Assembly: GCF_001975725.1 (NCBI RefSeq)
Contig: NZ_CP019434.1
Coordinates: 744,001 to 808,000, forward strand
Origin: Acidihalobacter ferrooxydans
GTDB lineage: Bacteria; Pseudomonadota; Gammaproteobacteria; DSM-5130; Acidihalobacteraceae
DNA: 64,000 bases
Direction of reading: 5' to 3'
Below, piece by piece: positions 4,789-38,796 of this stretch. The translations under genes were made by a program, and so were the position numbers. The notes beneath the pieces were generated by a model. The model saw only the letters and a list, made by a program, of their open reading frames with translations, searched no databases and was not told where the DNA came from. Position 1 is the first letter of the stretch. Each line of letters begins with the position of its first letter.

Positions 4789-6576
4789 ATGTGTGGTATT
4801 GCGGGTGAGCTGCGTCTGGATGGAACCGGGCCGCAAGAGCGCACGATGCGCTCGATGCTGGATTGTCTGCGGCGGCGCGGCCCGGATAGCGAAGGTGTGT
4901 TCACGGATGGCGGGCTGGCGCTCGGCCATCGTCGGTTGTCGATCATCGATCTTTCCACCGCGGCCGATCAACCGATGCAGGATGCGGGAAATGGCCTGAA
5001 CATCGTATTCAATGGCACGATTTACAATTATCCCGACCTGCGCCGCGAGTTGCAGGGATTGGGGCACAGTTTTCGTTCCACTGGCGACACCGAGGTCATT
5101 CTCAAGGCGTATGCACAGTGGGGGGAGCGGTGTGTCGAGCGTCTGATCGGCATGTTTGCCTTCGGCATTTGGGATAGTCGCAGACGCAGGCTGTTCCTGG
5201 CGCGTGACCGCATGGGCATCAAGCCGCTGTACTACAGTGAGTCGCCCCAGGCGTTTCGCTTCGCTTCCAACACGCAGGCGCTGCTCGCCGCGGGTGTCGA
5301 CACTGACATTGATCCGCTGGCCCTGCACCATCACATGAGCTTGCATGCGGTGGTGCCCGCGCCACGAACCCTGCTCAAGGGTATACGCAAGCTGCCCCCC
5401 GCGCATACGCTGAGTATCGGTGAGGATGGACGCATGACCGTGCGTCGTTACTGGTCTCTGAACGCGACACGCCCCGCCGCGGCGCGCAGCGAAGGCGAGT
5501 GGATCGAGGCGGTGCATGAGGCGCTGCGCGTGGCGGTCGAGCGGCGCTTGCGCATTGCCGACGTGCCGGTCGGCGTGCTGCTTTCCGGCGGTCTGGATTC
5601 CAGTCTGCTGGTCGCGTTGCTGGCCGAGTCCGGCGCGCAGGGGCTGAAAACGTTCACTGTCGGTTTCGAGGATCAACCGGAAGAAAAAGGAAGCGAGTTC
5701 GAGTACTCAGACCCGGTGGCCGAGCGTTACGCGACCGAACACTATAAGTTCGAGATCCCCAACAGCGAGGTGCTGACGCGTCTGCCCGAGGCTATCGATC
5801 TGATGTCGGAACCGATGGTAGCGCAGGATGCGGTGGCCTTTTATCTGCTGTCCGAGCAGGTGTCGAGGCACGTCAAGGCCGTGCAGTCGGGACAGGGCGC
5901 GGACGAAGTCTTCGGTGGGTATTTCTGGTACCCGCAGATGGCGGCGGCGCAGGGCGCGCCCATCGACCGTTTCCGTTCGCGTTATTTCGATCGTGATCAT
6001 GCCGAGTACCTGCGTACGGTCGCGCCGGCTTATGCGACCGATGACGTGACCTCGGCGTACATCGCCGAACGGCTGAACGAGCCTGATGCGGATGCGTTCA
6101 TCGATCAGGTGTTGCGCCTCGACGTGACTACGCTGATCGTCGACGATCCGGTCAAACGGGTGGACAACATGACCATGGCGTGGGGGCTGGAGGCGCGCGT
6201 ACCTTTCCTGGATCACGAGCTGGTCGAGCTGGCAGCGCGTATGCCACCCGAGCTGAAACTCGCCAGCGGCGGCAAGCATGTGCTCAAGCAGATCGCCCGC
6301 GGACGGATTCCGGATGCGGTGATCGACCGCAAGAAAGGCTATTTCCCGGTGCCAGCGCTGAAATACGTGCGCGGCGAGGCGTACGACTTCATGGCGGACG
6401 TTCTCAATGCGCGCGCCTGTCGCGAACGCGGACTGTATCGACGGGATTATGTCGATGCGCTGCTCGCCAATCCTGAGGGAGATCAGGCGTTCACGGCCAT
6501 TCGCGGCAACAAGCTTTGGCATCTGGCCTTGCTGGAGCTTTGGCTGCAACGCAATGTCGACGGCAAGTCTGTCTGA
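4789..6576 (+). CDS. asnO: Asparagine-synthase-family amidotransferase, N-acetylglutaminylglutamine (AsnO) type
   Basis: A glutamine-hydrolysing amidotransferase. Cys2 is the N-terminal nucleophile (MCGIAGELRL). The class II glutaminase domain runs to about 195, with RRGPDSEG and NGTIYNYPDL. The C-terminal synthetase domain has the pyrophosphate loop LLSGGLDSS (about 264-272) and GQGADEVFGGY. The 595-residue length and the region SEPMVAQDAVAFYLLSEQVS resemble the family amidating N-acetylglutaminylglutamine to the osmolyte NAGGN, rather than plain AsnB (about 554 residues). In the known locus it is accompanied by a GNAT/ATP-grasp dipeptide synthetase and an M42-like peptidase. Neither is adjacent here. 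Plain asparagine synthesis remains an alternative. Confidence 0.75.
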   Translation: MCGIAGELRLDGTGPQERTMRSMLDCLRRRGPDSEGVFTDGGLALGHRRLSIIDLSTAADQPMQDAGNGLNIVFNGTIYNYPDLRRELQGLGHSFRSTGDTEVILKAYAQWGERCVERLIGMFAFGIWDSRRRRLFLARDRMGIKPLYYSESPQAFRFASNTQALLAAGVDTDIDPLALHHHMSLHAVVPAPRTLLKGIRKLPPAHTLSIGEDGRMTVRRYWSLNATRPAAARSEGEWIEAVHEALRVAVERRLRIADVPVGVLLSGGLDSSLLVALLAESGAQGLKTFTVGFEDQPEEKGSEFEYSDPVAERYATEHYKFEIPNSEVLTRLPEAIDLMSEPMVAQDAVAFYLLSEQVSRHVKAVQSGQGADEVFGGYFWYPQMAAAQGAPIDRFRSRYFDRDHAEYLRTVAPAYATDDVTSAYIAERLNEPDADAFIDQVLRLDVTTLIVDDPVKRVDNMTMAWGLEARVPFLDHELVELAARMPPELKLASGGKHVLKQIARGRIPDAVIDRKKGYFPVPALKYVRGEAYDFMADVLNARACRERGLYRRDYVDALLANPEGDQAFTAIRGNKLWHLALLELWLQRNVDGKSV

Positions 6577-6729
6577 CAGTGAATGACATAAAATCAAACA
6601 TTACAATGTATTGAATCGTCTTCCTTAGAAGTTGCCTAAGCTTTTTTTCGGGCGTATTCTCAGTCTGCGCGGCGCGTCTGCCGCGCGACCCGACTCGGCA
6701 TGAGGCTGATATGGACTGGGAGGACTGAA

Positions 6730-7602
6730 GTGGACACATTTGATCGCCGTCGTTTTCTTCTTGGATCGCTGGGCCTTCTTGGAGGCGTGGCGATGTCCCG
6801 CGCGCAGGCGCATACACTCAAACCCGTGATTACCGCGACTCAGGCGCGCCCCTGGCGCCTGCGCGACGCGGTCGTGTGCATCGATCCGGGCCATGGCGGA
6901 CTCGATCCGGGCGCGATCGGGCACCATGGCACCTATGAAAAAAATGTCGTGCTCGATATCGCGCACCGTCTGCGCCGGCTGGTGGAGGCCGAAACGGGCA
7001 TGCAGCCGATCATGACGCGCAGCGGCGACGAGTACGTGACGCTGGAGAAACGAGTGTTCTACGCGCAGAAAAATCGCGCGGATCTTTTCGTAGCCATTCA
7101 TGCGGATGCCTCACCCTACAGCGAACCGCACGGCTCTTCGGTGTACGTGTTCACTCGTCATGGCGCCAGCAGTGAGTCGGCGCATGTTCTGGCCGAAAGC
7201 CAGAATAGACTCGATCGCACCGTCGGCCTCGGCGGACAGGGTCATTCGCTGTTGAGCGAAACCCTGTTCGACCTTGAAAGTCATGCCGTACTTGCCGAAA
7301 GCCTGATATTTGGCAAGCATGTGATGGATAACATCACGCATGTCGATAAATACCGCTATAGCGGCGTGCAGCGTGCAGCATTTGTCGTGCTCGCCGCGCC
7401 GAGTTTTCCCTCCACATTGGTCGAAACCGCATTCATTTCAAATCCCGAGCAGGAGCGCATGCTGCGCAGTCCGGCATTCCGGCAGCGCATGGCCGAGTCG
7501 CTGCTGGCCGGAATCAAGGGGTATTTCCGCGAGCATGCGCCGCCGGGAACCCTGCTAGCGGCGCGCAGCGATGCCTTGCAGTCGATGCACACCCACACTT
7601 GA
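6730..7602 (+). CDS. amiC: N-acetylmuramoyl-L-alanine amidase, AmiC-like, Tat-exported
   Basis: A periplasmic zinc amidase (Amidase_3 family) cutting peptide stems from murein, mainly at the septum. The GTG at 6730 is chosen because a GGGAGG Shine-Dalgarno ends 6 bp upstream. An ATG at 6700 lacks one. The product (290 residues) starts with a twin-arginine signal (FDRRRFLLGSLGLLGG), as in AmiA/AmiC. Zinc-site motifs are IDPGHGGLDPGA, YEKNVVLDIA, VAIHADAS and the catalytic-glutamate motif LVETAFISNP. It lacks the AMIN septum-targeting domain of E. coli AmiC, being shorter (AmiC is about 417), so it is closer in architecture to AmiA. Confidence 0.88.
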   Translation: MDTFDRRRFLLGSLGLLGGVAMSRAQAHTLKPVITATQARPWRLRDAVVCIDPGHGGLDPGAIGHHGTYEKNVVLDIAHRLRRLVEAETGMQPIMTRSGDEYVTLEKRVFYAQKNRADLFVAIHADASPYSEPHGSSVYVFTRHGASSESAHVLAESQNRLDRTVGLGGQGHSLLSETLFDLESHAVLAESLIFGKHVMDNITHVDKYRYSGVQRAAFVVLAAPSFPSTLVETAFISNPEQERMLRSPAFRQRMAESLLAGIKGYFREHAPPGTLLAARSDALQSMHTHT

Positions 7603-7705
7603 GTGCGTGCCGGCCCGATCTGCGATGGGTCGCTCATTGGTGATATTTAATACGACTTAAACGGGTCGTTTTGAATTATTGATACCTCTTCATGGTGGGC
7701 CTATC

Positions 7706-7742
7706 GTCATCTTCCCGCAGCACGTCGCTGCGGGAAGATGAC
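7706..7742 (+). promoter_or_regulatory. Perfect 16-bp stem-loop immediately before the MFS ribosome binding site
   Basis: Positions 7706-7721 pair perfectly with 7727-7742 around a 5-base loop (ACGTC). The Shine-Dalgarno GGAGG of the MFS gene begins at the base of the stem (7743) and the ATG is at 7754. There is no T-run after the stem, so it is not a standard terminator. It may be a translational or mRNA-stability element, or an operator as DNA. Confidence 0.7.
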
Positions 7743-7753
7743 GGAGGTTTATC

Positions 7754-8998
7754 ATGCGTTCCGATACGCTGCACAGCGATGTCGACGAGGCGCCTGCATC
7801 GGCTTATATCGAGCATGGTAGCGCGTCGTTCAAGCGGACTATTCTCGCGTTATTCGCCGCGGGGTTCGCAACATTCGCCCTGCTGTATTGCGTGCAGCCC
7901 TTGATGCCTGAATTCTCGCGCAACTTTGCGCTCAGCGCGGCGCAAAGCAGCCTGTCGCTGTCCGCGACCACCGGTGTGTTGGCGTTCGCCATGTTGATCG
8001 CGGGCGCGTTTTCGGACGCCTACGGGCGCAAGCCGGTGATGGTCGTCTCGCTGCTTGCATCGAGTCTGCTGACAGCCGGTTTGGCGCTGACCCGGGATTG
8101 GCAGGAAGTATTGATCATGCGCGCGCTCATGGGACTGACCTTGAGCGGTTTGCCCGCGATCGCCATGGCCTATCTCAGCGAGGAAATGGCGGCGCGATCG
8201 ATCGGTTTGGCAATGGGCCTGTTCATCGGCGGTTCGGCGCTTGGCGGCATGAGCGGGCGGCTGCTCGCGGGCGTGTTCACGGAGTGGCAATCGTGGCGCT
8301 TCGCGCTGGGCGTGATCGGTTTCACCGGCCTGATCTGCGGGTTGATTTTCTGGCGGGCGTTGCCGCCCTCACGTCATTTCGAGCCACGCCCGCTGCGCTT
8401 GCATGAATTGGCCGCTCCGGCGCGTCGCCTGCTGCGCGATCCGGGCTTGCCGTGGCTGTTTTTCGCCGGCTTCCTGCTTATGGGTGTTTTTGTAACACTC
8501 TATAATTACATTGCCTATCGCCTTTCGGGTGCGCCGTACGATCTTGGGCAGGGTGCGGTTGGTGCGATCTTCGGCGTGTATCTGGTCGGCATCTTCAGTT
8601 CGGCCTGGATGGGGCATCTGGCCGGTAAACTGGGTCGCCGTAAAGTATTCTGGAGTGCGTTCGTATTGATCCTGGTCGGCATCGGACTGACGCTACTGCA
8701 ACCGCTTGCGCTGGTGATTCTGGGCCTGGCAGTGCTGACCTTCGGGTTCTTTGGCGGACATTCCATCGTCAGCAGTTGGGTTGGGCGCAGGGCTGGCGGG
8801 GCGAAAGCTCAGGCATCGTCGCTGTATCTGTTCTCCTATTACATGGGGTCGAGTATCGCCGGCTATTGCGGCGGGTTTTTCTGGGATCGCTTCGGCTGGG
8901 TTGGCGTGGTGGGATTCACCGGTGCGTTGGCAACGCTGGGTGTGGGCGTGGCGTTACGCCTGCAAGGCTTGCAGCCAATAACCCCGGAAACCCATTAG
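7754..8998 (+). CDS. Major facilitator superfamily exporter, YnfM-like
   Basis: A 12-helix inner-membrane transporter of 414 residues. After a polar N-terminus of about 27 residues come evenly spaced hydrophobic segments. The MFS signature between TM2 and TM3 reads GAFSDAYGRKPVM, with its second-half counterpart GHLAGKLGRRKVF. Overall it resembles the YnfM group of DHA1 proton antiporters (sugar or drug efflux); the substrate cannot be told. The start is supported by GGAGGTTTATC-ATG. In enterobacteria ynfM sits next to a LysR gene; here a LysR gene also follows, but convergently with a family A repeat between them. The stop codon at 8998 is directly followed by that repeat. Confidence 0.85.
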   Translation: MRSDTLHSDVDEAPASAYIEHGSASFKRTILALFAAGFATFALLYCVQPLMPEFSRNFALSAAQSSLSLSATTGVLAFAMLIAGAFSDAYGRKPVMVVSLLASSLLTAGLALTRDWQEVLIMRALMGLTLSGLPAIAMAYLSEEMAARSIGLAMGLFIGGSALGGMSGRLLAGVFTEWQSWRFALGVIGFTGLICGLIFWRALPPSRHFEPRPLRLHELAAPARRLLRDPGLPWLFFAGFLLMGVFVTLYNYIAYRLSGAPYDLGQGAVGAIFGVYLVGIFSSAWMGHLAGKLGRRKVFWSAFVLILVGIGLTLLQPLALVILGLAVLTFGFFGGHSIVSSWVGRRAGGAKAQASSLYLFSYYMGSSIAGYCGGFFWDRFGWVGVVGFTGALATLGVGVALRLQGLQPITPETH

Positions 8999-9142
8999 CA
9001 GGGGTGCTTTTGCCCGATCCTTAGAATCCACGGATTGTTTCTTCGCTCAAAACATAACGATGTCGCTCGCTGAGAATTACCCTGTGAATTTTGCTTCCTG
9101 CGCAACGATTGCTTCGCCTCATGGATTATCCGGGCAGAAAGT
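8999..9142 (+). repeat. Family A dispersed repeat, copy A3
   Basis: It shows GAATCCACGGATTG, TTTCTTCGCTC, CGATGTCGCTCGCTGAGAA, CCTGTGAATTTTG, TGCGCAACGATTGCTTCGCC and the end CATGGATTATCCGGG. It starts immediately after the MFS stop codon. Confidence 0.75.
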
Positions 9143-9190
9143 ATCAGCCGGTGACGACACGGCGGATGCTCCGGCCTGATTTGTCCGGGC

Positions 9191-10096
9191 TTAACGCCGA
9201 GCTTCGGCCAGCAGGAGTCTGGCGAATGCATCGACCAGTGGTGAGTGATCGTCGCGCCGGCGGACCATGCGTATACCCGATTCGGCGCCCGGGTCCTGTA
9301 ATGGCACGTAGCTGACGCCTTCGATGTGGATGTGCTCATACGATGCCGGCAGAACGGACACGCCCATACCGGCGGCGACCAGGCCGATGATGGTTGACGG
9401 CTCGGCCGCTTCCTGGCTGATGCGCGGGTTGAAACCGGCAGCGACGCATAGCGCGACGACTTGATCACGGATGCCGGTGCCGGCGCCATGGCTGAATACC
9501 ACGAACGGCTCATCGGCCAGCGCATTCAGCGGCAACCGATACGCCCTGTCGAGTTGCCGCAGATGCGCATGTTCGCTGGGCATGACGGCGACCAGGGGGT
9601 CGCTGAACAGCGCCTGGGCTTCAAGTGTTGGCGGTAATACGGCTGGCCGCATGATGCCCAAGTGCAAGCGTCGCCCCAGCAGGGCATCAATCTGTTGGAG
9701 CGTAGGCAGTTCCTCCAATTGCAGATGCACGTCCGGGCGTTCACGGCGGAACGCCGAGATCGTACGTGGGATATGTCGGCTCAATGGTGTGGAGGCGGTG
9801 AAGCCAATGCGCAACTCCCCGGCTTCTCCGCGTGCGACGCGTCTGGCGAGTTCCACCGCGTGTTCGCTGTGCCGCAGGATGGCGCGCGCTTCGGTCACGA
9901 AGGCGCGACCGGCCTCGGTGAGTTCGACGCGGCGGTTGCTGCGGCATAACAGCGGTGTGCCGATGGTGTCTTCGAGTTGGCGGATCTGCTGGCTGAGTGG
10001 CGGTTGTGAGATACCGAGGCGCTCGGCGGCACGACTGAAATGCAATTCGTTGGCGACAGCGATGAAATAACGCAAGTGGCGCAGTTCGATGGGCAT
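9191..10096 (-). CDS. LysR-family transcriptional regulator
   Basis: A 301-residue regulator with the standard N-terminal winged helix (MPIELRHLRYFIAVANELHF, then HFSRAAERLGISQPPLSQQI and the wing at LTEAGRAF). It has a C-terminal substrate-binding fold of about 200 residues for a co-inducer. Start 10096 is chosen because residue 1 of the canonical LysR domain falls there. The longer in-frame extension to 10216 runs into a family B repeat and is unlikely to be coding. The target could be the convergent MFS gene, by analogy with the ynfL-ynfM pair, but the arrangement here is tail-to-tail, so this is only a guess. Confidence 0.88.
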   Translation of the reverse strand: MPIELRHLRYFIAVANELHFSRAAERLGISQPPLSQQIRQLEDTIGTPLLCRSNRRVELTEAGRAFVTEARAILRHSEHAVELARRVARGEAGELRIGFTASTPLSRHIPRTISAFRRERPDVHLQLEELPTLQQIDALLGRRLHLGIMRPAVLPPTLEAQALFSDPLVAVMPSEHAHLRQLDRAYRLPLNALADEPFVVFSHGAGTGIRDQVVALCVAAGFNPRISQEAAEPSTIIGLVAAGMGVSVLPASYEHIHIEGVSYVPLQDPGAESGIRMVRRRDDHSPLVDAFARLLLAEARR

Positions 10097-10184
10097 GACA
10101 GTGTGACGATAAAGACGGGGCTCCCAACTATAGCGCGTTACCCGGCACTCTTCGGCGCTGTACATCCGTCGAGTTTCTAGCTCG

Positions 10185-10335
10185 GCGTGTTTCATGCCTG
10201 TGTGCTGATATTGCATTGGATCTGGATTTCACGAGGGAGTTCGAAGTGAGAGGGGTGTCGCCGATGACGGCCGGCTGAGGAACAGTTCGTTGTGGAATCA
10301 AAATCACAGCGAGATCGGCGGGGCTTTGTGAAGCA
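10185..10335 (-). repeat. Family B dispersed repeat, copy B3
   Basis: On the minus strand the block order is CAATGCTTCACAAAG, CGCCGATCTCGCTG, TTTTGATTCCACAACG, CTCAGCCGGCCGTCATCGGC, CTCGTGAAATCCAGATCC and GGCATGAAACACG. This matches B1 along its length. It fills the space upstream of the LysR gene. Confidence 0.7.
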
Positions 10336-10407
10336 TTGCCGCTCACTGAAGACTGTTCCCGGTCAATCCATATCTCTGCGCAATCATCGCCTCGACTAAC
10401 TAGGCCG
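10336..10407 (+). repeat. Family A dispersed repeat, partial copy A4
   Basis: Contains CCGCTCACTGAAGA, CAATCCATATCTCTGCGC and AATCATCGCCTCGACT, the right half of family A, joined directly to B3. The remainder of the gap to uvrB (10408-10719) shows no gene. It holds one small stem-loop motif, TTGCGCTCGCCTGAGCGA at 10506-10523, repeated at 44303-44320. No LexA-type CTG-N10-CAG box was found before uvrB. Confidence 0.6.
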
Positions 10408-10719
10408 GTGTTGTCTGCTCCTGCGGCACGCCAGGGCGTCAAAATCGGGCTTTTGTGCCCATTTACGCTCTGTAAACAGCGCTTTTCCGCCAGACAATCT
10501 TTTTCTTGCGCTCGCCTGAGCGACAATAACAGTTGCTGTTTAGGCCGCATGGACTTTCAGGGTGGGCGAGAAAATCGGTTACAGTGAGTCTGTAAGATGG
10601 CCCGATAGGGGGCTGCCCGGCGCAAGGCCGGCATCTATCAGGCAGCCGATGAGGCGGCTTTCAGATTCATCTTTTGTGCGGTGTGTTTTCGGATGGGATC
10701 GCAGTGTAATGGCAATAAT

Positions 10720-12735
10720 ATGAACGCCGGGTTTCAGCTTGAAACGGACTATGCACCGGCGGGTGACCAGCCCACGGCCATCAATGAGTTGGTGGATGGG
10801 CTTGAAGCGGGTCTGGCACACCAAACCCTGTTAGGCGTGACAGGCTCGGGCAAAACGTTCACGATTGCCAATGTGATTGCGCGAGTGCAGCGCCCAACCG
10901 TGGTGATGGCGCCCAACAAGACGCTTGCCGCGCAGCTCTATGGGGAGATGCGGGAGTTCTTTCCGCATAATGCGGTTGAGTACTTCGTGTCTTACTACGA
11001 TTACTACCAGCCTGAAGCGTATGTGCCGGCCAGCGATACGTTCATCGAAAAAGATGCATCGGTCAATGAACATATCGAGCAGATGCGTTTGTCCGCGACG
11101 AAGGCTCTGATGGAACGGCGCGATGCCATTATCGTTGCGACAGTTTCGGCGATCTATGGTTTGGGCGACCCGGAGTCGTATCTGCGGATGGTGCTGCACC
11201 TCGATCGAGGTGACCGCGTCGACCAGCGTGAGTTGCTTCGGCGTCTGGCTGAATTGCAGTACAAACGCAATGATATCGACCTTCAACGCGGGACGTACCG
11301 TGTGCGCGGCGAGGTGATCGATGTCCGTCCGGCTGAATCCGATGACGAAGCCGTGCGGGTGGAGTTGTTTGACGATGAAATCGAAGCGCTGTCTTATTTC
11401 GATCCATTGACCGGGGAAGTACTGCGCCGTGTGCCGCGGCTGACGATTTATCCGAAAACCCACTATGTGACGCCGCGCTCGACATTGCTGGAGGCGGTAG
11501 AAAGGATAAAAGACGAACTGCAACTGCGGCTTGCCGAGTTGCGCGATCAGCAACGTCTGGTGGAGGCCCAGCGGCTGGAGCAGCGCACGCGTTTCGATAT
11601 CGAGATGATCGTTGAGCTGGGTTATTGCTCGGGCATCGAAAACTATTCGCGTTATCTTTCCGGGCGTGCGCCGGGCGAGCCGCCGCCGTGTTTGCTGGAC
11701 TACCTGCCGCCGGATGCGCTCATGGTGCTGGATGAAAGCCATGTCACGGTGCCGCAGATAGGGGCGATGTACAAGGGCGATCGTTCGCGCAAGGAAACGT
11801 TGGTCGAATACGGCTTCCGCCTGCCATCGGCATTGGATAACCGCCCGCTTCGGTTCGATGAATTCGAGCGGATTGCGCCGCAGATGATTTATGTGTCAGC
11901 CACACCGGGGCCTTACGAATTCGAACATTCCGGGGCGGTGGTCGAACAGGTGGTGCGCCCGACAGGTCTGGTCGATCCGGTCGTCGAAATACGGCCGGTC
12001 GCCGGGCAAGTCGATGACGTGATGTCGGAAATTACTGCCCGTGCCGCACGTAATGAGCGCGTTTTGGTGACGACGCTGACCAAGCGCATGGCAGAAGATT
12101 TGACTGAATATCTGCATGAACACGGGGTGCGCGTGCGGTATCTGCATTCCGATATTGATACGGTCGAACGCGTTGAGATTATCCGTGATCTCAGGCTGGG
12201 CGAATTCGATGCGTTGATCGGGATCAATCTCTTGCGTGAGGGTCTGGATATGCCGGAAGTGTCTCTGGTGGCGATTCTGGACGCCGATAAAGAGGGTTTC
12301 TTGCGCTCCGAGCGTTCGTTAATACAGACCATCGGGCGCGCGGCCCGGAATCTGCGCGGCAGGGCGATTCTGTACGCGGATAGCGTGACGGGGTCCATGC
12401 GGCGCGCACTTGAGGAAACGGATCGAAGACGTGCCCGTCAGCAGGCATTCAATGCGCAGCATGGCATCACGCCGAAGGGCGTTGAAAAGCGCGTCGCCGA
12501 CATCATGCAGGGTGGGTATGGCGGGGATGCCGGAGGGAGTTCGAGTCGCCGAAGGAATGTAGCGGAGGCGTCGACCGATTACACAGCGGTCGATACCGCG
12601 ACAGCATCCAGGCGCATCGAGCAGTTGGAAAAACAGATGCTTGAGCATGCGCGCAATCTGGAGTTCGAAGAGGCAGCGCGCTTGCGTGACGAGGCGCATC
12701 GTCTGCGCACGCAAGCATTTGGCGGTGGGGGCTGA
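10720..12735 (+). CDS. uvrB: Excinuclease ABC subunit B
   Basis: The damage-verifying helicase-like subunit of nucleotide excision repair, acting with UvrA and UvrC. The 671-residue product has Walker A GVTGSGKT (39-46), the beta-hairpin region [12 protein letters not shown], the DESH-type Walker B ([11 protein letters not shown]), and helicase motifs V-VI ([19 protein letters not shown]). The C-terminal UVR motif for UvrC contact includes [20 protein letters not shown]. The ATG at 10720 gives the family N-terminus ([21 protein letters not shown]). An in-frame ATG at 10693 would add nine residues. It stands alone between repeats and tRNA-Val. Confidence 0.97.
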
Positions 12736-12879
12736 GTGTACGGTATCGGTCTGTGGTAAGCGCCACGTATCCGCGTGCAAAAGTCCATGCGTCCGCTGGG
12801 GGCAATGCGCTGTGATGACGGCTTTGTTCACGAGCATCGGGGCGAGTATTTGAGGTGGATCGTGCAGGGCATTCGATGC

Positions 12880-12908
12880 TTGCTGTTTTTGGTGGGCTCG
12901 GATAGTAT
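12880..12908 (+). promoter_or_regulatory. Candidate sigma-70 promoter of tRNA-Val
   Basis: TTGCTG (12880-12885) and TAGTAT (12903-12908) are separated by 17 bp, and the tRNA begins 13 bp after the -10 element. Matches to consensus are moderate (3/6 and 4/6). Confidence 0.45.
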
Positions 12909-12920
12909 GCGCGCTTCTTC

Positions 12921-12997
12921 AGGCGCGTAGCTCAGCTGGTTAGAGCACCACCTTGACATGGTGGGGGTCGTTGGTTCGAGTCCAATCGCGCCTACCA
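12921..12997 (+). tRNA. tRNA-Val (GAC)
   Basis: A complete cloverleaf. The acceptor arm AGGCGCG pairs with CGCGCCT. The D-arm is GCTC-AGCTGGTTA-GAGC. The anticodon arm CCACC-TTGACAT-GGTGG has anticodon GAC. The T-arm is GTTGG-TTCGAGT-CCAAT. The 3' ACCA is genomically encoded. The 77-nt gene lies between uvrB and thrS. Confidence 0.96.
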
Positions 12998-13103
12998 ACA
13001 CATATCGAAGGCTGTCGGTATCAGGGGTGTCATGCCCGGTGATGCCGCAGCCTTTTCAATTTGTGGCTTGTGGCCCCTCGTATAGGCCACCATGGAGAAT
13101 GCC

Positions 13104-15020
13104 ATGCCTGTGATTACCCTGCCCGATGGCAGTGAGCGCCGCTTCGATCACGCGGTTTCTGTTGGCGAGGTCGCCGCCGATATTGGCCCCGGGCTGGCCA
13201 GGGCGGCGTTGGCCGGGCGCGTCGACGGGCGTCTGGTCGACGTATCTTATACGCTCGATGCCGATGCCCATGTTGCGATCGTGACGGCAAAAGACCCGGA
13301 CGGTCTCGAGGTGTTGCGGCATTCGACGGCGCATTTGTTGGGGCAGGCGGTGAAGGTGCTCTTCCCGGATGCTCAGGTTACCATCGGCCCCGTGGTTGAG
13401 AACGGCTTCTATTACGACTTCGCCTATTCGCGCTCGTTTACGCCCGATGATCTTGAGGCGATAGAGGCAAAAATGCACGAGCTGGCCGAGCAGGACATTC
13501 CGGTTGTGCGCAGTGAAATGGCGCGCGATGAAGCGGTCGGGTTCTTTCGGCAGATGGGCGAAAAATACAAGGCGCTTATTATCCAGGACATTCCATCCGA
13601 TGAAACTCTCTCGCTGTATCGGCAGGGGGATTTCATTGATCTGTGTCGCGGGCCGCACGTGCCCAGCACGGGTAAACTGGGCGCATTCAAGCTGACGAAA
13701 GTGGCCGGGGCTTATTGGCGGGGCGATTCAAACAACGAGATGCTGCAACGTATCTACGGCACCGCCTGGCCGGATAATAAGTCGCTCAAGTATTATCTGC
13801 GCCAGCTTGAGGAGGCCGAGAAACGTGATCATCGGCGCATCGGCAAGCAACTTGACTTGTTCCATGTCCAGGAGGAGGCGCCCGGCATGGTGTTCTGGCA
13901 TGCCAAGGGCTGGAGCATCTGGAATACGGTCGAGCACTATATGCGCCGTGTCTATGTGGAGTGCGGCTATCAGGAAGTGCGCAGCCCGCAGGTGGTCGAT
14001 GTGTCGCTATGGAAGCGTTCCGGCCATTGGGGAAACTATAAGCAGAACATGTTTTTTACGGAGTCGGAAAAGCGCGAATATGCACTCAAGCCGATGAATT
14101 GCCCGGGGCATGTTCAGATTTTCAATCATGCGCTGCGCAGTTACCGTGATCTGCCGCTGCGCTACGGTGAGTTCGGGGCTTGCCATCGCAATGAGCCCTC
14201 AGGTGCGCTGCACGGCATTATGCGAGTGCGCGGGTTCACTCAGGACGATGGCCATATTTTTTGCACCGAGGAGCAGATTGAGCAGGAAGTCGCCGCATTT
14301 CATGCGCAGGCGATGCGGGTCTATGCCGATTTTGGCTTCGGTGCGGATAGCGTGTCGGTCAAGATCGCCTTGCGCCCGGATACGCGCATGGGCTCCGATG
14401 AGGACTGGGACAAGGCAGAGAATACGCTGCGCAACGCGCTGCGCGCCTGCGGCGTGGAATGGGAAGAACTGCCCGGCGAGGGTGCGTTCTATAGCCCGAA
14501 GGTCGAGTACCACCTCAAGGATGCCATCGGCCGCGAGTGGCAAGTCGGTACGATACAGGCTGATTATCATATGCCCGTGAACCTTGGTGCCGAATATGTC
14601 GATGAACATTCCGAGCGTCAGACTCCGGTCATGTTGCACCGCGCGATCCTGGGGTCGCTGGAGCGCTTCATCGGCATTCTGATTGAACACCATGAGGGAC
14701 GGTTCCCGCTGTGGCTGGCGCCGGTACAGATGGCGGTCATGAATATCACCGACCGTCAGGCCGACTACGCGGATTCGGTGCAGCATGCTCTGTTAAAACA
14801 GGGGTTTCGGGCCATTGTCGACTTGAGAAACGAGAAGATTGGCTTTAAGATTCGCGAGCATACGCTTCAGCGCGTTCCTTTCCTTCTGGTGGTCGGGGAC
14901 AGAGAAGCGGAAAATCAAACGGTTGCCGTGCGGACACGTGCAGGGGATGATCTCGGTTCGATGAGTCTCGAAGCGTTTTTCGAGCGACTTGCTGAGGAGC
15001 CCGTGCCGTCTGCGTTTTAA
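13104..15020 (+). CDS. thrS: Threonyl-tRNA synthetase
   Basis: Class II synthetase charging tRNA-Thr. The 638 residues comprise the N-terminal TGS domain ([12 protein letters not shown]), the editing domain with [10 protein letters not shown] (about 75), the catalytic core with the zinc cysteine in [12 protein letters not shown] and motif 2 around [15 protein letters not shown], and the anticodon-binding domain at the end. Start 13104 is preferred to an ATG four codons upstream, because GGAG at 13094-13097 is correctly spaced and MPVITLPDG matches the family. It heads the thrS-infC-rpmI-rplT-pheST-ihfA gene string; infC follows 21 bp after the stop. In E. coli ThrS represses its own mRNA via a tRNA-like operator; no such structure was verified in the short leader here. 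Confidence 0.97.
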
Positions 15021-15041
15021 TTATTTCTGGAGGGTAGCGTA

Positions 15042-15560
15042 ATCAGCGCTCAGAAGAATGTTCGCCTGAATGACGAGATTGCCGTCAGGCAGGTTCGGTT
15101 GATCGACGCCGAAGGCGAGAACCGCGGTGTCGTTTCGATCGAGGACGCTTTGGCATTGGCCGAAGAAGCGAATTTGGACTTGGTCGAAATCGTACCTACC
15201 TCGCAGCCACCGGTTTGCCGGATCATGGATTACGGCAAGTTCAAGTTCGAGCAGAGCAAGAAAGCATCGATTGCTCGCAAGAAGCAGAAGCAGATCCAGG
15301 TCAAGGAAGTGAAGTTCCGGCCTGGTACTGATATCGGGGATTACCAGGTGAAGATGCGTAACCTGACCCGGTTCCTCGAAGACGGGGATAAAGCGAAAAT
15401 CACGATTCGTTTTCGCGGTCGTGAGATGGCGCATCAGGAAAGAGGCATACAACTGTTGCAGAGGATCGAGGCGGATCTGGGCGATCTTGTCACGGTCGAG
15501 CAACGGCCTAAAATGGAGGGGCGTCAGATGGTGATGGTCGTCGCCCCGAAGAAAAAGTGA
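15042..15560 (+). CDS. infC: Translation initiation factor IF-3, with AUC start codon
   Basis: IF-3 binds the 30S subunit, discriminates against wrong start codons and prevents subunit association. The reading frame begins at ATC 15042, seven bases after a GGAGGG Shine-Dalgarno. It encodes (M)[21 protein letters not shown] and then canonical IF-3, including the [17 protein letters not shown] and [12 protein letters not shown] regions; 172 residues. No ATG or GTG in frame near the Shine-Dalgarno could give the conserved N-terminus; the first TTG (15099) would delete it. E. coli infC uses AUU and IF-3 represses its own translation through that codon. AUC suggests the same autoregulation here. 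Confidence 0.95.
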
Positions 15561-15605
15561 ATCGTGTAGCCCCGGTGGGTACACAAGCTGTAGTGGAGTT
15601 AATCA

Positions 15606-15803
15606 ATGCCTAAGTTGAAGACCAATCGCGGCGCTGCCAAGCGCTTTGCGAAGACGGCCTCGGGCCGTTACAAGCGCGCTCAGTCGCACCTGAATCATAT
15701 TCTGACCAAGAAGAGCACCAAGCGTAAGCGCCATTTGCGTGCGCCTGGCCTTGTGGCCGAGTGCGATACGCCGGCCATCAAGCGTATGCTCCCCTACAGC
15801 TGA
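15606..15803 (+). CDS. rpmI: 50S ribosomal protein L35
   Basis: A 65-residue basic ribosomal protein ([17 protein letters not shown], ending in KRMLPYS), exactly the family length. It lies 45 bp after infC and 22 bp before rplT, in the conserved infC-rpmI-rplT order. In E. coli L20 represses rpmI-rplT translation via pseudoknot structures in the infC-rpmI region. Equivalent structures may exist between 15561 and 15605 but were not resolved by eye. Confidence 0.97.
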
Positions 15804-15825
15804 GTCGGATAGAGAGGATTAAGTC

Positions 15826-16185
15826 ATGCCCAGAGTGAAACGTGGTGTAACCGCGCATGCGCGCCACAAAAAAGTCCTGAAGAAGGCCAAGGGTTATTAC
15901 GGTGCACGCAAGAACGTTTATCGTGTCGCCAAGCAGGCGGTTACGCGTGCCGGCCAGTACGCCTATCGCGACCGCCGTCAGCGTAAACGTCAGTTTCGTG
16001 CGCTGTGGATCGTGCGCATCAACGCGGCTGCGCGTCAGTTCGGCCTGTCCTATAGCCGCCTGATCGATGGTATGAACAAGGCCGGTATCGAATTGGATCG
16101 CAAGGTGCTGGCGGATTTGGCCGTGTGCGATATCGATGCGTTCGGCAGTATCGCGGAGAAGGCCAAAGCCGCGTTGTCCGCCTGA
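15826..16185 (+). CDS. rplT: 50S ribosomal protein L20
   Basis: A 119-residue rRNA-binding assembly protein ([20 protein letters not shown], with [17 protein letters not shown]), of standard length and order after rpmI. The N-terminal arginine/lysine-rich tail threads 23S rRNA, and the C-terminal globular half mediates autoregulation in E. coli. A GAGAGGATTA ribosome-binding region precedes the ATG. A terminator follows 48 bp after the stop. Confidence 0.97.
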
Positions 16186-16232
16186 AACAGGCCTGACGGC
16201 TTGCGTTTTTGCCACAGTCGTTTGTTGAAGAG

Positions 16233-16257
16233 GGGAAAGGTGGGCCTTTCCCTTTTT
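16233..16257 (+). terminator. Rho-independent terminator between rplT and pheS
   Basis: An 8-bp perfect stem (GGGAAAGG 16233-16240, CCTTTCCC 16245-16252, loop TGGG) is followed by TTTTT. It lies 62 bp before the pheS GTG, the position where E. coli has the pheM attenuator. I could not find a Phe-rich leader peptide upstream. Confidence 0.85.
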
Positions 16258-16297
16258 CGTTTCTGAAGCACAGGATTGTCGAGTGGTTGAGCTCTGA

Positions 16298-17335
<1,038 letters not shown>

Positions 17336-20380: not shown

Positions 20381-20390
20381 CGGTTTAACC

Positions 20391-20554
20391 TGGGAGCCTG
20401 TCGACTTGGAAAGAATCGGCTGCGGCGGTGGGATAATGGGCCCACGACACGCTCTTTTTCGTCGAATAGAACCACTCGACCTCAAAAGAGTGAGAAACTG
20501 GCCTCCATTCCCCACTCGCCTCGCGACGATCCTCCAAGTCCGACAGGCTCCTGG
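20391..20554 (-). repeat. Family C palindromic repeat, long form, copy C1
   Basis: A 164-bp element bounded by GAGCCTGTCGACTTGGAAAG on the left and TCCAAGTCCGACAGGCTCC on the right, so its ends are inverted repeats. The centre holds the about 65-bp insert of the long form (GCTCTTTTTCGTCGAATAGA, GAAACTGGCCTCCATTCCCC). It is inverted relative to C2 and C3. It begins 11 bp after the MerR gene stop. Confidence 0.85.
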
Positions 20555-32120: not shown

Positions 32121-32290
32121 CCAGGAGCCTGTCGGACTTGGAGGATCGAAGCGAGGCGAGTGGGGAATGGAGGCCAGTTTCACGGTCTTTTGAGGACAAT
32201 AGTGGTTCTATTCGACGAAAAAGAGCGTGGAAATGGGCCCATTATCCCATCGCCGCAGCCGATTCTTTCCAAGTCCGACAGGCTCCTAGG
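32121..32290 (+). repeat. Family C palindromic repeat, long form, copy C2
   Basis: The best-preserved long copy (170 bp). It starts CCAGGAGCCTGTCGGACTTG and ends AAGTCCGACAGGCTCCTAGG. The arms continue as GGATCGAAGCGAGGCGAGTG and CATCGCCGCAGCCGATTCTT, which are themselves partly complementary. The central insert runs about 32167-32230. Confidence 0.9.
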
Positions 32291-34636: not shown

Positions 34637-35788
34637 TCACGCCTCGATGCACAGTGTCCTGATCAGTGTGCGGAGGATGGCGATGGTCTGCGCAAGCGCC
34701 GCGTGTTCGATGAATTCATTCGGCTGATGCGCCTGATCGATGCTGCCGGGGCCGAAGATGACGGTCTCGATGCCAAGCCGGGCATAGAACGGCGCTTCGG
34801 TGCCGAAGGCTACGGAGCGCGGCGGCTTGCCGCTCAGCTCGGCGAGCAGGTCGACCACGCGCGCCGCCGGCGGACTCTGGAACGCCTCGATGCCGGGAAA
34901 CAGCGCAAAGGTCTCGAAGCTCAGTTCGCTGCCACGCAATGCCTGATCGACCTGTGCATGCAGTTCGCTGCGCAGCGTGTCGAGCGACATGCCGGGCAGC
35001 GGGCGCAGATCGAAGTGCACTTCGCAGCTCGGGCAGATCCGGTTGGGGTTGTCGCCGCCGTGGATGTGGCCCAGGTTCAGCGTTGGGTAGGGCACGGCGA
35101 AGGCATCGTTGCGGTAACGACGCGTCAGATCTTCGCGCCAGTCGAGCAGCGCGCCGAGCACGCGGTGCATGCCATCCAGCGCATTACGCCCGCGGGCGGG
35201 ATCGCTGGAGTGGCCGCTGCGCCCGGTGATGCGCACCGCCTCCATGGCGATGCCTTTGTGCATATGCACCGGTTTCAGGTCGGTCGGCTCGCCGATCACG
35301 CAGTGTCTGGCGCGCGGCCGGCCAAGCTGGGTGAGCAGGCGCGCGCCGTCCATGCTGCTTTCCTCATCGGCCGTGCCGACGATGATCAGCGGGTGGCGCA
35401 GTTGCGCCGGGTCGAGGCCGCGGGCGGCCTCGATGGCCAGCGCGAGAAAACTTTTCATGTCGGCCGAGCCGAGGCCGTACAGCCGGCCGGCATCGGGGGT
35501 GAGCTTGAACGGATCGTGCCGCCACAGGCCATCGTCCCAGGGCACGGTGTCGGTGTGGCCGGAGAGAATCAGTCCGTCTTCGCCGGTGCCGAGTGTGGCG
35601 ATGAAATTGGCTTTGTTGGGGAAGTTCGTCAGCGGAATCACTTCGACGCGGAAGCCGGCGCTTTCCAGCCAACCGGCGACGCGGTCGACGAGGTCGCGGT
35701 TGCCCATGTCGAAGTCGGGCGAAACACTGCTGACTGTTGGCAGGGCGATCAGTTCGGCAAGCATCTGGTCGAGTGGCGGTGCTGGCAT
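34637..35788 (-). CDS. argE: Acetylornithine deacetylase
   Basis: An M20-family zinc hydrolase releasing ornithine from N-acetylornithine. The metal and catalytic motifs are SGHTDTVPWD (first His/Asp), GLGSADMKSFLAL (bridging Asp), TADEESSMDGA (catalytic and metal Glu), and HQPNEFIE with the last His. Start 35788 gives 383 residues, the same length as E. coli ArgE. A longer in-frame reading to 35884 would translate family C repeat sequence and is rejected. It is 33 kb from argD-argF, and transcribed alone or with the DUF1537 gene (49-bp gap). Confidence 0.95.
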   Translation of the reverse strand: MPAPPLDQMLAELIALPTVSSVSPDFDMGNRDLVDRVAGWLESAGFRVEVIPLTNFPNKANFIATLGTGEDGLILSGHTDTVPWDDGLWRHDPFKLTPDAGRLYGLGSADMKSFLALAIEAARGLDPAQLRHPLIIVGTADEESSMDGARLLTQLGRPRARHCVIGEPTDLKPVHMHKGIAMEAVRITGRSGHSSDPARGRNALDGMHRVLGALLDWREDLTRRYRNDAFAVPYPTLNLGHIHGGDNPNRICPSCEVHFDLRPLPGMSLDTLRSELHAQVDQALRGSELSFETFALFPGIEAFQSPPAARVVDLLAELSGKPPRSVAFGTEAPFYARLGIETVIFGPGSIDQAHQPNEFIEHAALAQTIAILRTLIRTLCIEA

Positions 35789-35821
35789 GGCGGCGTGTCG
35801 TGGGTTGATGAGTGAAGTTGT

Positions 35822-35986
35822 CTGGGAGCCTGTCGGACTTGGAGGATCGAAGCGAGGCGAGTGGGGAATGGAGGCCAGTTTCACGGTCTTTTGATGATGA
35901 GTGATTCTATTCGGACGAAAAAGAGCGGGGGGGACCCCTTATCCCATCGCCGCAGCCGGTTCTTTCCAAGTCTGACAGGCCCCTAG
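35822..35986 (+). repeat. Family C palindromic repeat, long form, copy C3
   Basis: It starts CTGGGAGCCTGTCGGACTTG and ends AAGTCTGACAGGCCCCTAG, with the long-form central insert (GGAGGCCAGTTTCACGGTCT, GGACGAAAAAGAGCG). One oddity is a GGGGGGGACCCC run at 35928-35939 in place of TGGAAATGGGCCC. Confidence 0.88.
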
Positions 35987-36091
35987 CATAGGCGCCAAAG
36001 ACGAAGGCGGAAAGAGGCGCATGTGCGCCGGGCGGTATGGGCGTAGCGCATTGTGTGGCAAAGGGCGCAGAATGCCGGGTTTGATGCACGT

Positions 36092-36209
36092 CCAGGTGCC
36101 TTCGGGCTTGCTGGCGGACTTGGATGAGCGTGGCGAGGCGAGTGCGGGCAGTGAGCCCATTGGCCGCTTGCTGCTGTCGATGTTTCCCAGGCCCGACAGG
36201 CCCCTGGCA
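36092..36209 (+). repeat. Family C palindromic repeat, short diverged form, copy C4
   Basis: Left end CCAGGTGCCTTCGGGCTTGC with GGCGGACTTGGATGAGCG; right end CCCAGGCCCGACAGGCCCCT. The element ends 19 bp before the GNAT/C39 gene, so it supplies that gene's 5' leader. Confidence 0.75.
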
Positions 36210-36227: not shown

Positions 36228-37334
36228 ATGATCCGTTCAGCCACACTCGATGATGTCGACGCCTTGCTCGCGCTGGAGCAGGTATGCTTCGAGACCGATC
36301 AACTGACCCGCCGCCAGTTCCGCTACATGCTGACCAGGGCGCACGCCAGTCTGCTCGTGTATGAAAACGCGGGCGCGCCGGGCGCATACGTGCTGATCCT
36401 GTTCAATCGGGGCACGTCGATGGCGCGCATCTATTCGATTGCAGTGAGTCCGATCCTGCGCGGTCAGGGCGTTGGCCGGGCGCTGGTCGAGGCGGCCGAG
36501 ACTGCGGCGCGTGAAGAAGGGCGGATCAGCCTGCGTCTGGAAATCCGCCGCGACAACGTCGCCTCGCAGGCGCTGTTCCGGAGTCTGGGTTACCGCCAGT
36601 TCGGCGCTGTGGACGATTATTACGAAGATCATATGGAAGCGCTGCGCTTCGAGAAACGCCTGACGCCGACCCTGAACGTCGATCAGGTGCCGGTGCCGTT
36701 TTACGAGCAGACGCTGGACTTCACCTGCGGGCCGTCCTCGCTGATGATGGCGATGAAAACACTGCGCCCGGCGCTGGCACTCGACCGCACGCTGGAACTG
36801 CGTATCTGGCGCGAAGCGACGACCATTTTCATGACCTCCGGGCATGGCGGCTGTGGGCCGTTCGGGCTTGCCCTGTCAGCCTGGCACCGCGGTTTCGATG
36901 TGGAAGTGTTCGTCAACGAGGAGGCCGGGTTCTTTACCGATTCGGTGCGCAGCCGGATCAAGAAAGACGTGATCCGCCTGGTGCAGGAGGACTTTCTCGC
37001 CGAACTGCGCGAGCAGGGTGTGCCGTTACATCTTGAACCGCTGGATACGGCTGAACTGCGCGCGCGTTTCGAGGCCGGCGGTGTGCCCGTCGTGCTGATC
37101 AGTTCCTGGCGCATCTATGGCGAGAAATTCCCGCACTGGGTGGTGGTCACCGGCTTCGACGAGCGCTTCGTGTACGTGCACGACCCGTTCGTGGATTACG
37201 CGGCCGGCAAGACGCCGCTCGATTCGCTCAACATGCCCATCCTGCTGGAGGAGTTCGCCCACATGACCCGTTACGGACGCGCCGGCCTCAAAGCCGTGCT
37301 GATCGTCAGCCGCCGAGAGACTGCGCATGGCTGA
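36228..37334 (+). CDS. GNAT acetyltransferase fused to a C39-like cysteine peptidase
   Basis: A two-domain protein of 368 residues. Residues about 1-145 are a GNAT fold with the acetyl-CoA loop SPILRGQGVGRAL. Residues about 155-365 are a C39-like papain-fold domain with Cys167 (FTCGPSSLMM), His303 (KFPHWVVVTGF) and Asp319 (YVHDPFVD). It overlaps the RimK-like ligase gene by eight bases. The same pair is recurrent in proteobacteria and has been predicted from comparative genomics to make or trim an acetylated peptide. No product is known to me. ATG 36228 gives the GNAT N-terminus (MIRSATLDDVDAL); a TTG two codons earlier is possible. Confidence 0.88.
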   Translation: MIRSATLDDVDALLALEQVCFETDQLTRRQFRYMLTRAHASLLVYENAGAPGAYVLILFNRGTSMARIYSIAVSPILRGQGVGRALVEAAETAAREEGRISLRLEIRRDNVASQALFRSLGYRQFGAVDDYYEDHMEALRFEKRLTPTLNVDQVPVPFYEQTLDFTCGPSSLMMAMKTLRPALALDRTLELRIWREATTIFMTSGHGGCGPFGLALSAWHRGFDVEVFVNEEAGFFTDSVRSRIKKDVIRLVQEDFLAELREQGVPLHLEPLDTAELRARFEAGGVPVVLISSWRIYGEKFPHWVVVTGFDERFVYVHDPFVDYAAGKTPLDSLNMPILLEEFAHMTRYGRAGLKAVLIVSRRETAHG

Positions 37335-38796
37335 ACCACTCGTTATCGTCGAAAACCCCGGCGACTGGAAGGATGCCTATCCCGCGTTGCGGGTGGTGAC
37401 TGCGCGCGACTACCTTGCCGGTGCGGTGGAGGATCTCGACCGGGATCTGCGCGTCATCAACCTGGCGCGCGACTACAGCTACCTCAGCGTCGGGTATTAC
37501 ATCTCGCTGCTCGCCGAAGCGCGCGGGCATCGCGTCATTCCCAGCGTGCGCACGATGCAGGACTTGAGCCGCAAGTCGATCTATACGCTCGATACCGAAG
37601 AGCTGGAGCGTATCGCGCGCAAGACCGTCGGGCGCGCCCAGCCGGACGTGATCGTCAACGGCATCGAGCTGATGATCTATTTTGGCGAATCCGCCGCGCC
37701 GGCGTGGCAGGAGCTGGCGCGGCAACTGTTCGACGCCTTCCGCTGCCCGGTGCTGCGCGTCGAGCTGCGCCGCCAGGGCGAGTGGCGCATCAGCGCCATC
37801 CAGGCCATGCATCCGCATGCGCTGGATGCCGCGCAGCAGGCTTCGTTCGCCGAGGCTCTCAGCGTCTATGTCACGCGGCGCTGGAACAAACCGCGCTCGC
37901 GCACCCGCTACCGTTATGACCTGGCCATCCTGCACGATGCGGACGAACAACTGCCGCCGTCGGACCGCGGCGCGTTGAAGAAAATGATCCGCGCTGGCAA
38001 GGCGCTGGGCGTGGATGTGGATCTGATTACGCGTAAGGACTATGGGCGTCTGGCCGAGTACGATGCGCTGTTTATCCGTGAGACCACCAACATAGACCAC
38101 TACACCTATCGCTTCGCCAAAAAGGCCGAAAGCGAGGGCATGGTGGTCATCGACGATCCCGACTCGATCCTGCGCTGCACTAACAAAGTCTATCTGGCCG
38201 AATTGCTCAAGGCGCACCGCATTCCGCGGCCAAAGACGGTCATCGTCAGCCGCGAGAACGTCAAGAATCTGGCCGACGAACTGGGCTTCCCGCTGGTGCT
38301 CAAGATTCCGGACGGCTCGTTTTCGCGCGGCGTGGTCAAGGCCGAGAACCCGGCTGAGCTGAAAAAAGTATCAGCGCAGTTCTTCCGCGATTCCGACCTG
38401 ATTCTGGCGCAGGAATTCATGTATACCGACTTCGACTGGCGCGTTGGCATTCTCAATCGCAAACCGCTGTTCGTCTGCCAGTATTTCATGTCCAAGAAAC
38501 ACTGGCAGATCGTCAATCACGCGACCAAGGGCGCGCCGCAGTCCGGCGGGTTCAAGACCTTCAGCATCGAGGACGCGCCGCCGAAGGTCGTGAAAACCGC
38601 CTTGCGCGCCGCGAATCTGGTCGGCGACGGTCTCTATGGCGTCGACATGAAACAGATCGGCGACCGTGTGGTGGTTATCGAGGTCAACGACAATCCGAAT
38701 ATTGACTCCGGCGTCGAGGATCTGGTTCTTGGCGACGCACTGTATACCGCGTTGATGGCCGAGTTCGTGCGCCGCATCGAGGGGCAGCAGGCCTGA
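37327..38796 (+). CDS. RLAN-domain RimK-like ATP-grasp ligase
   Basis: A 489-residue amide-forming ligase. The N-terminal about 185 residues match the RLAN domain (RimK-like ATP-grasp N-terminal; DLRVINLARDYSYLSVGYY). The C-terminal ATP-grasp module has PLVLKIPDGSFSRGVVK for ATP and VVIEVNDNPNIDSG for Mg2+. RimK relatives add amino acids, often glutamate, to carboxyl groups of proteins or small molecules; the substrate here is unknown. Translational overlap with the GNAT/C39 gene implies one pathway: ligation, N-acetylation, and proteolytic trimming or release. E. coli RimK itself is about 300 residues and lacks RLAN. Confidence 0.88.
   Translation: MAEPLVIVENPGDWKDAYPALRVVTARDYLAGAVEDLDRDLRVINLARDYSYLSVGYYISLLAEARGHRVIPSVRTMQDLSRKSIYTLDTEELERIARKTVGRAQPDVIVNGIELMIYFGESAAPAWQELARQLFDAFRCPVLRVELRRQGEWRISAIQAMHPHALDAAQQASFAEALSVYVTRRWNKPRSRTRYRYDLAILHDADEQLPPSDRGALKKMIRAGKALGVDVDLITRKDYGRLAEYDALFIRETTNIDHYTYRFAKKAESEGMVVIDDPDSILRCTNKVYLAELLKAHRIPRPKTVIVSRENVKNLADELGFPLVLKIPDGSFSRGVVKAENPAELKKVSAQFFRDSDLILAQEFMYTDFDWRVGILNRKPLFVCQYFMSKKHWQIVNHATKGAPQSGGFKTFSIEDAPPKVVKTALRAANLVGDGLYGVDMKQIGDRVVVIEVNDNPNIDSGVEDLVLGDALYTALMAEFVRRIEGQQA

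Follow-up and report, generated by a model that had tools for sequence, protein, structure and literature searches.

The analyzed window, a 64,000-nucleotide stretch of the Acidihalobacter ferrooxydans genome (NZ_CP019434.1, positions 744,001 to 808,000), contains a further instance of a widespread and already catalogued gene unit, in which a GNAT-DUF3335 fusion is paired with an RLAN-ATP-grasp ligase. At about an even chance, we interpret this pair as a synthetase of two enzymes whose product is a small peptide or amino-acid amide with an N-acyl, probably an N-acetyl, group. The first gene (36228..37334, forward strand), an ORF with PF00583 and PF11814 matches, starts with ATG and codes for the fusion of a GNAT with a C39-like papain-fold DUF3335 domain (368 aa, beginning MIRSATL). 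The second (37327..38796, forward strand), an ORF recognized by its Pfam domains, codes for the RLAN-RimK-type ATP-grasp ligase (489 aa). The two genes are co-directional and, as an earlier note on this DNA had stated, overlap by 8 bp (37327-37334). Each occurs in one copy in the genome, and the AlphaFold pLDDT is 90.9 for the fusion and 81.7 for the ligase. The same note held the pair to be known from comparative genomics and to have no characterized product; it is indeed catalogued, and our search turned up no characterized product. The known pairs (PF11814, PF14401) show the same domains and co-occurrence, with no difference in kind, but the present genes have a co-directional 8-bp overlap whereas they are divergent in many gammaproteobacteria. 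Neighborhoods of ATP-grasp/GNAT amidoligases were reportedly described by Iyer et al. in 2009.

Domain architecture and active sites

The RimI/Ard1-like GNAT domain (36228..36677, forward strand) is matched by the Acetyltransf_1 profile (PF00583; fusion residues 17-122, E 7e-15) and by the RimI profile TIGR01575, the latter at 70.4 bits against a cut-off of 86.4. It displays the acetyl-CoA-binding RGQG loop (R78-G79-Q80-G81) and two further conserved residues, E105 (111/111 GNATs) and Y132 (110/111), which occupy the places of the catalytic Glu103 and Tyr115 of RimI. The closest folds to the GNAT model are Ard1 (4pv6; Z 22.6, 145 residues, rmsd 1.5) and RimI (2cnm; Z 22.1, 143 residues, rmsd 1.6), and these matches support an N-alpha-acetyltransferase type of fold for the predicted structure. 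The domain thus shares the GNAT fold and the catalytic Glu/Tyr with RimI, the S18 N-alpha-acetyltransferase, but is distinguished from it by its score below the family cut-off, its different partner genes and the presence of a true RimI elsewhere in the genome (C1:494103, 122.6 bits with TIGR01575).

The C39-like domain (36693..37307, forward strand) is a clear member of the DUF3335 family (PF11814; residues 156-360, E 6e-85, 284 bits against a cut-off of 25). The residues Cys167, His303 and Asp319 were correctly numbered in the earlier note (codons 36726-36728, 37134-37136 and 37182-37184, all on the forward strand). Q161, C167 and H303 are each retained in 77/77 C39 domains, while position 319 shows 71 D and 6 E; a second cysteine, C209, which lies in a GHGGC loop, is kept in 75 of the 77. 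The papain-like Gln-Cys-His-Asp arrangement is common to these domains and the C39 peptidases of bacteriocin/RiPP ABC transporters. However, DUF3335 is a separate Pfam family, fused to a GNAT and lacking a transporter domain, with a near-invariant GHGGC loop. Sequence comparison with solved structures gave only weak C39-like matches (E 0.6-1), and the fusion of DUF3335 to a GNAT has one mention in the literature searched (PMC10318531). Two other versions were seen in other genomes. A stand-alone DUF3335 protein of 233 aa (locus L143 of genome G008, 7120-7821) does not have Cys at the C209 position, and its neighbors look like lpd and genes for the 2-oxoglutarate dehydrogenase complex. In locus L141 (G197:C15:25000-44500, 7716-15397), an apparent operon for a peptide-type ABC transporter and a gene resembling AstE/AspA precede a DUF3335 gene in whose product Pfam detects no GNAT; a second DUF3335 copy is nearby.

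The ligase begins with the RLAN domain (37402..37857, forward strand; PF14401, residues 26-177, E 4e-48, 163 bits against a cut-off of 25), in which N45, Y52, G56-Y57-Y58, S60, R66, P72, F119 and P141 are near-invariant. The pre-ATP-grasp and ATP-grasp domains follow (residues 197-486; 37915..38784, forward strand), with the Pfam RimK match (PF08443) spanning residues 286-460. K287, K326, D440, E452 and N454 are kept in 114/114 RLAN enzymes, and R372 of the ATP-grasp domain is likewise invariant. The protein hence has the makeup of the RLAN-ATP-grasp family, namely RLAN followed by a RimK-like ATP-grasp with the Lys and Mg-binding residues. In the fold search, its ATP-grasp part matched RimK (7qys; Z 28.4, 271 residues, 2.5 A), LysX (3vpd; Z 28.1) and ArgX (3vpb; Z 27.9), supporting a predicted amide-ligase fold closest to these three structures; the matches are dominated by the GNAT and ATP-grasp parts, and the RLAN and C39 folds are barely sampled by them. 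A search by sequence for solved relatives of the RLAN domain gave none that was convincing, and no functional paper on RLAN was found in the literature searched. The best profile families for the ligase are rimK_fam and LysX. It has in common with RimK, LysX and ArgX the ATP-grasp fold and the Lys/Mg residues, but it adds the N-terminal RLAN domain, has a motif of its own (EVNDNPNIDxGVED) and falls below the rimK_fam cut-off (TIGR00768; 84.7 against 143.4 bits). A search of the genome with the RimK-family profile gave no match above cut-off. Given this and the true RimI encoded elsewhere, the pair is a separate system.

The claim that the acetyl-CoA loop and the key residues of the C39 and ATP-grasp domains are all present is thus borne out, and the C39 and ATP-grasp residues are also conserved in the homolog alignments. 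The loss of catalytic residues in homologs, which the earlier note proposed to look for, was not encountered among 77 C39 domains and 114 ligases.

Linkage of the GNAT and the RLAN ligase across genomes

The bulk of the evidence for a common role of these proteins comes from gene linkage and conservation. Of the 299 genomes sampled from the phylum, 56 carry RLAN and 47 carry DUF3335; the two occur together in 46, out of 57 with either family (Fisher p ~4e-43, a value that ignores phylogeny and overstates independence, as do the other p-values, since the sampled genomes are related). This association is not a matter of chance. For 44 of the 59 RLAN genes, a DUF3335 domain is encoded no more than 6 kb away. 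A GNAT of the same subfamily adjoins RLAN in 76/80 named loci, 47 of them with the C39 domain and 29 without it; in three of the other four loci the stretch covered contains no match, and the fourth is cut at a contig end. The arrangement varies between co-directional and divergent, the latter being that of Pseudomonas and Rhodanobacteraceae. The evolutionary distances of the GNAT and RLAN proteins are also correlated (r 0.77, n 108, against a permutation maximum of 0.12), with shared species history contributing to the value. Together, these observations support a functional link between the GNAT and RLAN proteins. As RLAN is present in about a fifth of the sampled genomes, the metabolite or protein modification that it generates would be widespread; the carriers include tractable Pseudomonas and Azospirillum.

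The C39 domain shows a different pattern. A tree of 111 GNAT domains requires three shifts of the C39 label, each imposed by supported branches. One of these corresponds to a large clade of stand-alone GNATs paired with RLAN, and the other two are losses within the fusion clade, in a Pseudomonas fluorescens-type lineage and in a mixed lineage of genomes from families f11 and f31. Hence, the C39 domain was lost at least twice, and the GNAT-RLAN pairing outlasts every change of the label. In one genome (G247, L158:6553-8514), the GNAT, RLAN and ATP-grasp are combined in a single 653-aa ORF, and GNAT-C39 is encoded by a distinct gene convergent to this ORF; in another (G006), GNAT and RLAN are paired at one site and GNAT-C39 is encoded at another. 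The persistence of the pairing after C39 loss, the natural fusion and the split genes point to the GNAT and the ligase as the core and to the C39 domain as an accessory. The minimal unit for experiments is accordingly the GNAT plus RLAN. The earlier note had deduced amide-bond formation, N-acetylation and proteolytic trimming in one pathway. The first two, with acetylation broadened to N-acylation, are still the best reading of the pair, but trimming does not hold up as an obligatory step, because C39 is absent in 29 of the 80 loci and was repeatedly lost while the GNAT and RLAN were kept.

Neighboring genes

Two further uncharacterized families, DUF2817 and DUF155, are tied to the GNAT and RLAN unit. 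DUF2817, with a weak likeness to AstE/AspA, is presumably an M14-type amidohydrolase. Of the 80 named loci, 9 (from Methylophaga, HdN1 and others) have it between or beside the two genes, and in 14 sampled genomes, mostly of one family (f33), it is no more than 6 kb from RLAN. DUF155, the RMND1 family, is encoded close to RLAN or to GNAT-C39 in 13 sampled genomes (f33, f3 and f34) as well as in Sedimenticola and HdN1; among 31 sampled genomes that encode DUF155, 19 contain RLAN as well (p 2e-8, ignoring phylogeny). Across several lineages, DUF155 genes were repeatedly seen beside the GNAT-C39/RLAN pair (L189, L190, L067, L123 and L187). Human RMND1 is linked to mitochondrial translation. A description of the wider GNAT-C39/RLAN/DUF2817/DUF155 association was not found in the literature searched. 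We tentatively raise the possibility, which we consider rather unlikely, that all four belong to one modular pathway whose product is either a protein tag or an N-acyl peptide metabolite; if so, bacterial relatives of a human mitochondrial disease protein would participate in it. Both families are absent from the A. ferrooxydans genome, and its pair is hence a minimal form.

Other neighbors were set aside as partners. A divergent gene for an M20 (ArgE-like) deacetylase (window 34637-35884) adjoins the pair, but of 97 loci checked a single one (L062, a Thiocapsa MAG) has a homolog, likewise next to the pair; the remaining neighbors in the window are not conserved. A CorA-like gene (c7) and a shikimate dehydrogenase gene (c5, assigned by eye) beside RLAN occur only in Pseudomonas and Rhodanobacteraceae neighborhoods and were put down to synteny. 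Scans for sigma-70 promoters and terminators gave nothing above chance.

Possible functions of the pair

The closest functional precedent is Ngg, the N-acetylglutaminylglutamine (NAGG) synthetase. This enzyme carries out the N-acetylation of one glutamine as well as the ligation of another, and a peptidase gene belongs to its operon (PMC8070244). In Ngg (TIGR03103), with its AsnO and peptidase, a GNAT and an ATP-grasp cooperate with a peptidase alongside, as in the present pair, and the RLAN relative in G247 has an Ngg-like layout of both enzymes in one chain. However, the GNAT and ATP-grasp of the pair come from other branches of their superfamilies, there is an extra RLAN domain, and an asparagine synthase is missing. 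The pair is no NAGG synthetase by profile (21.3 against 569 bits, the GNAT part only); the ATP-grasp part has no closeness to that enzyme detectable by BLASTP, and a true Ngg is encoded elsewhere in this genome (C1:173015-174643, 845 bits). A link between RLAN and NAGG synthetase was rejected, their presence being independent across genomes (p 0.2). In G006 (L187, G006:C1:232000-251500, 5796-16809), a NAGG operon of AsnO, Ngg and then an M42 peptidase, with a divergent MarR-like gene, is followed ~2 kb further on and in the same direction by GNAT-C39, DUF2817 and DUF155, possibly by coincidence. As a hand estimate over eight genomes with both systems gives ~2% for such coincidence at ~5 kb from Ngg, we do not rely on this proximity.

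The pair would thus follow the logic of NAGG synthetase with enzymes drawn from different branches of the GNAT and ATP-grasp superfamilies. Acetylation by the RimI-type GNAT would take place on the alpha-amino group of either an amino acid or a short peptide, and the RLAN-ATP-grasp would activate a carboxylate as an acyl-phosphate and couple it to a second amine. The fused C39/DUF3335 domain might be an optional hydrolase or transacylase acting on that product in turnover, trimming or exchange, and in other bacteria the DUF2817 amidohydrolase and the DUF155 protein may join the pair. We infer the chemistry, the order of the steps and the small size of the product, the last being favored because of the Ngg precedent. 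Synthesis of a small peptide is further suggested by the linkage, the correlated divergence, the intact active sites, the G247 fusion, the optional C39 domain, the recurrent and weakly AstE/AspA-like DUF2817 neighbor and the failure to find a conserved precursor beside the pair; the optional C39 and the DUF2817/DUF155 links sharpen this hypothesis.

What speaks against a small product is the kinship of the enzymes. RimI, Ard1 and Naa10 are protein N-alpha-acetyltransferases, and RimK, LysX and ArgX act on proteins or carrier proteins. With the GNAT nearest the former (best family RimI, 70 bits; best folds Ard1, RimI and Naa10) and the ligase nearest the latter by both profile and fold, a protein substrate is possible. 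In this main rival account, which we regard as less likely, the target would be a specific host or carrier protein whose gene is elsewhere. The GNAT would cap its N-terminus, which C39 may first have exposed by cleavage, and the RLAN-ATP-grasp would extend its C-terminus by one or more amino acids, comparable to RimI and RimK acting on the ribosomal proteins S18 and S6. The genome's own RimI, without a RimK above cut-off, and the recurrent DUF155 neighbors in relatives are consistent with such a separate modification system. However, no conserved substrate gene is found near the pair, and the hydrolases encoded next to it in relatives (DUF2817, AstE-like) look like amidohydrolases of small molecules. 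These hydrolases also bring up degradation or salvage, with C39, DUF2817 and the ligase recycling imported N-acyl peptides and the GNAT acting on released amines. DUF2817 adjoins the pair in several lineages, and the transporter-associated DUF3335 gene of G197 (L141) would suit this proposal, but we think it improbable, as an ATP-consuming ligase that stays with the GNAT after C39 loss argues for synthesis. A RiPP pathway, in which the ATP-grasp and the GNAT would modify a ribosomal precursor and C39 would remove its leader, appears very improbable. All three kinds of enzyme occur in RiPP clusters. C39 peptidases cleave double-glycine leaders in many RiPPs (PMC8939145). Yet the C39 domain is dispensable here, no conserved transporter adjoins the pair, and a search of 80 loci, with 753 small ORFs near the pair, gave no family kept across lineages, the apparent candidates being genus-level artefacts and antisense ORFs. 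The loci therefore do not classify as RiPP or graspetide clusters with a linked precursor gene, although an unlinked one is conceivable.

Family C repeats upstream of the pair

The pair was described in the earlier note as bordered by family C repeats, which is true of its upstream side only, the nearest downstream piece being at ~46.4 kb. Upstream, a full copy with 22-nt terminal inverted repeats (35822..35992) is followed by a degenerate second copy or half (36111..36204), which ends ~24 bp before the ATG of the fusion gene; further copies in the window lie at 32124-32289 and 20390-20551. The repeat is dispersed, with matches at no fewer than 40 sites of the 3.45-Mb genome (86-91% identity; 40 of 173 candidates scored); a role for it in the pair was therefore rejected, its position here being coincidental. 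The element is ~165-170 bp long and strongly foldable (z -4.8), and has the appearance of a MITE- or REPIN-like family.
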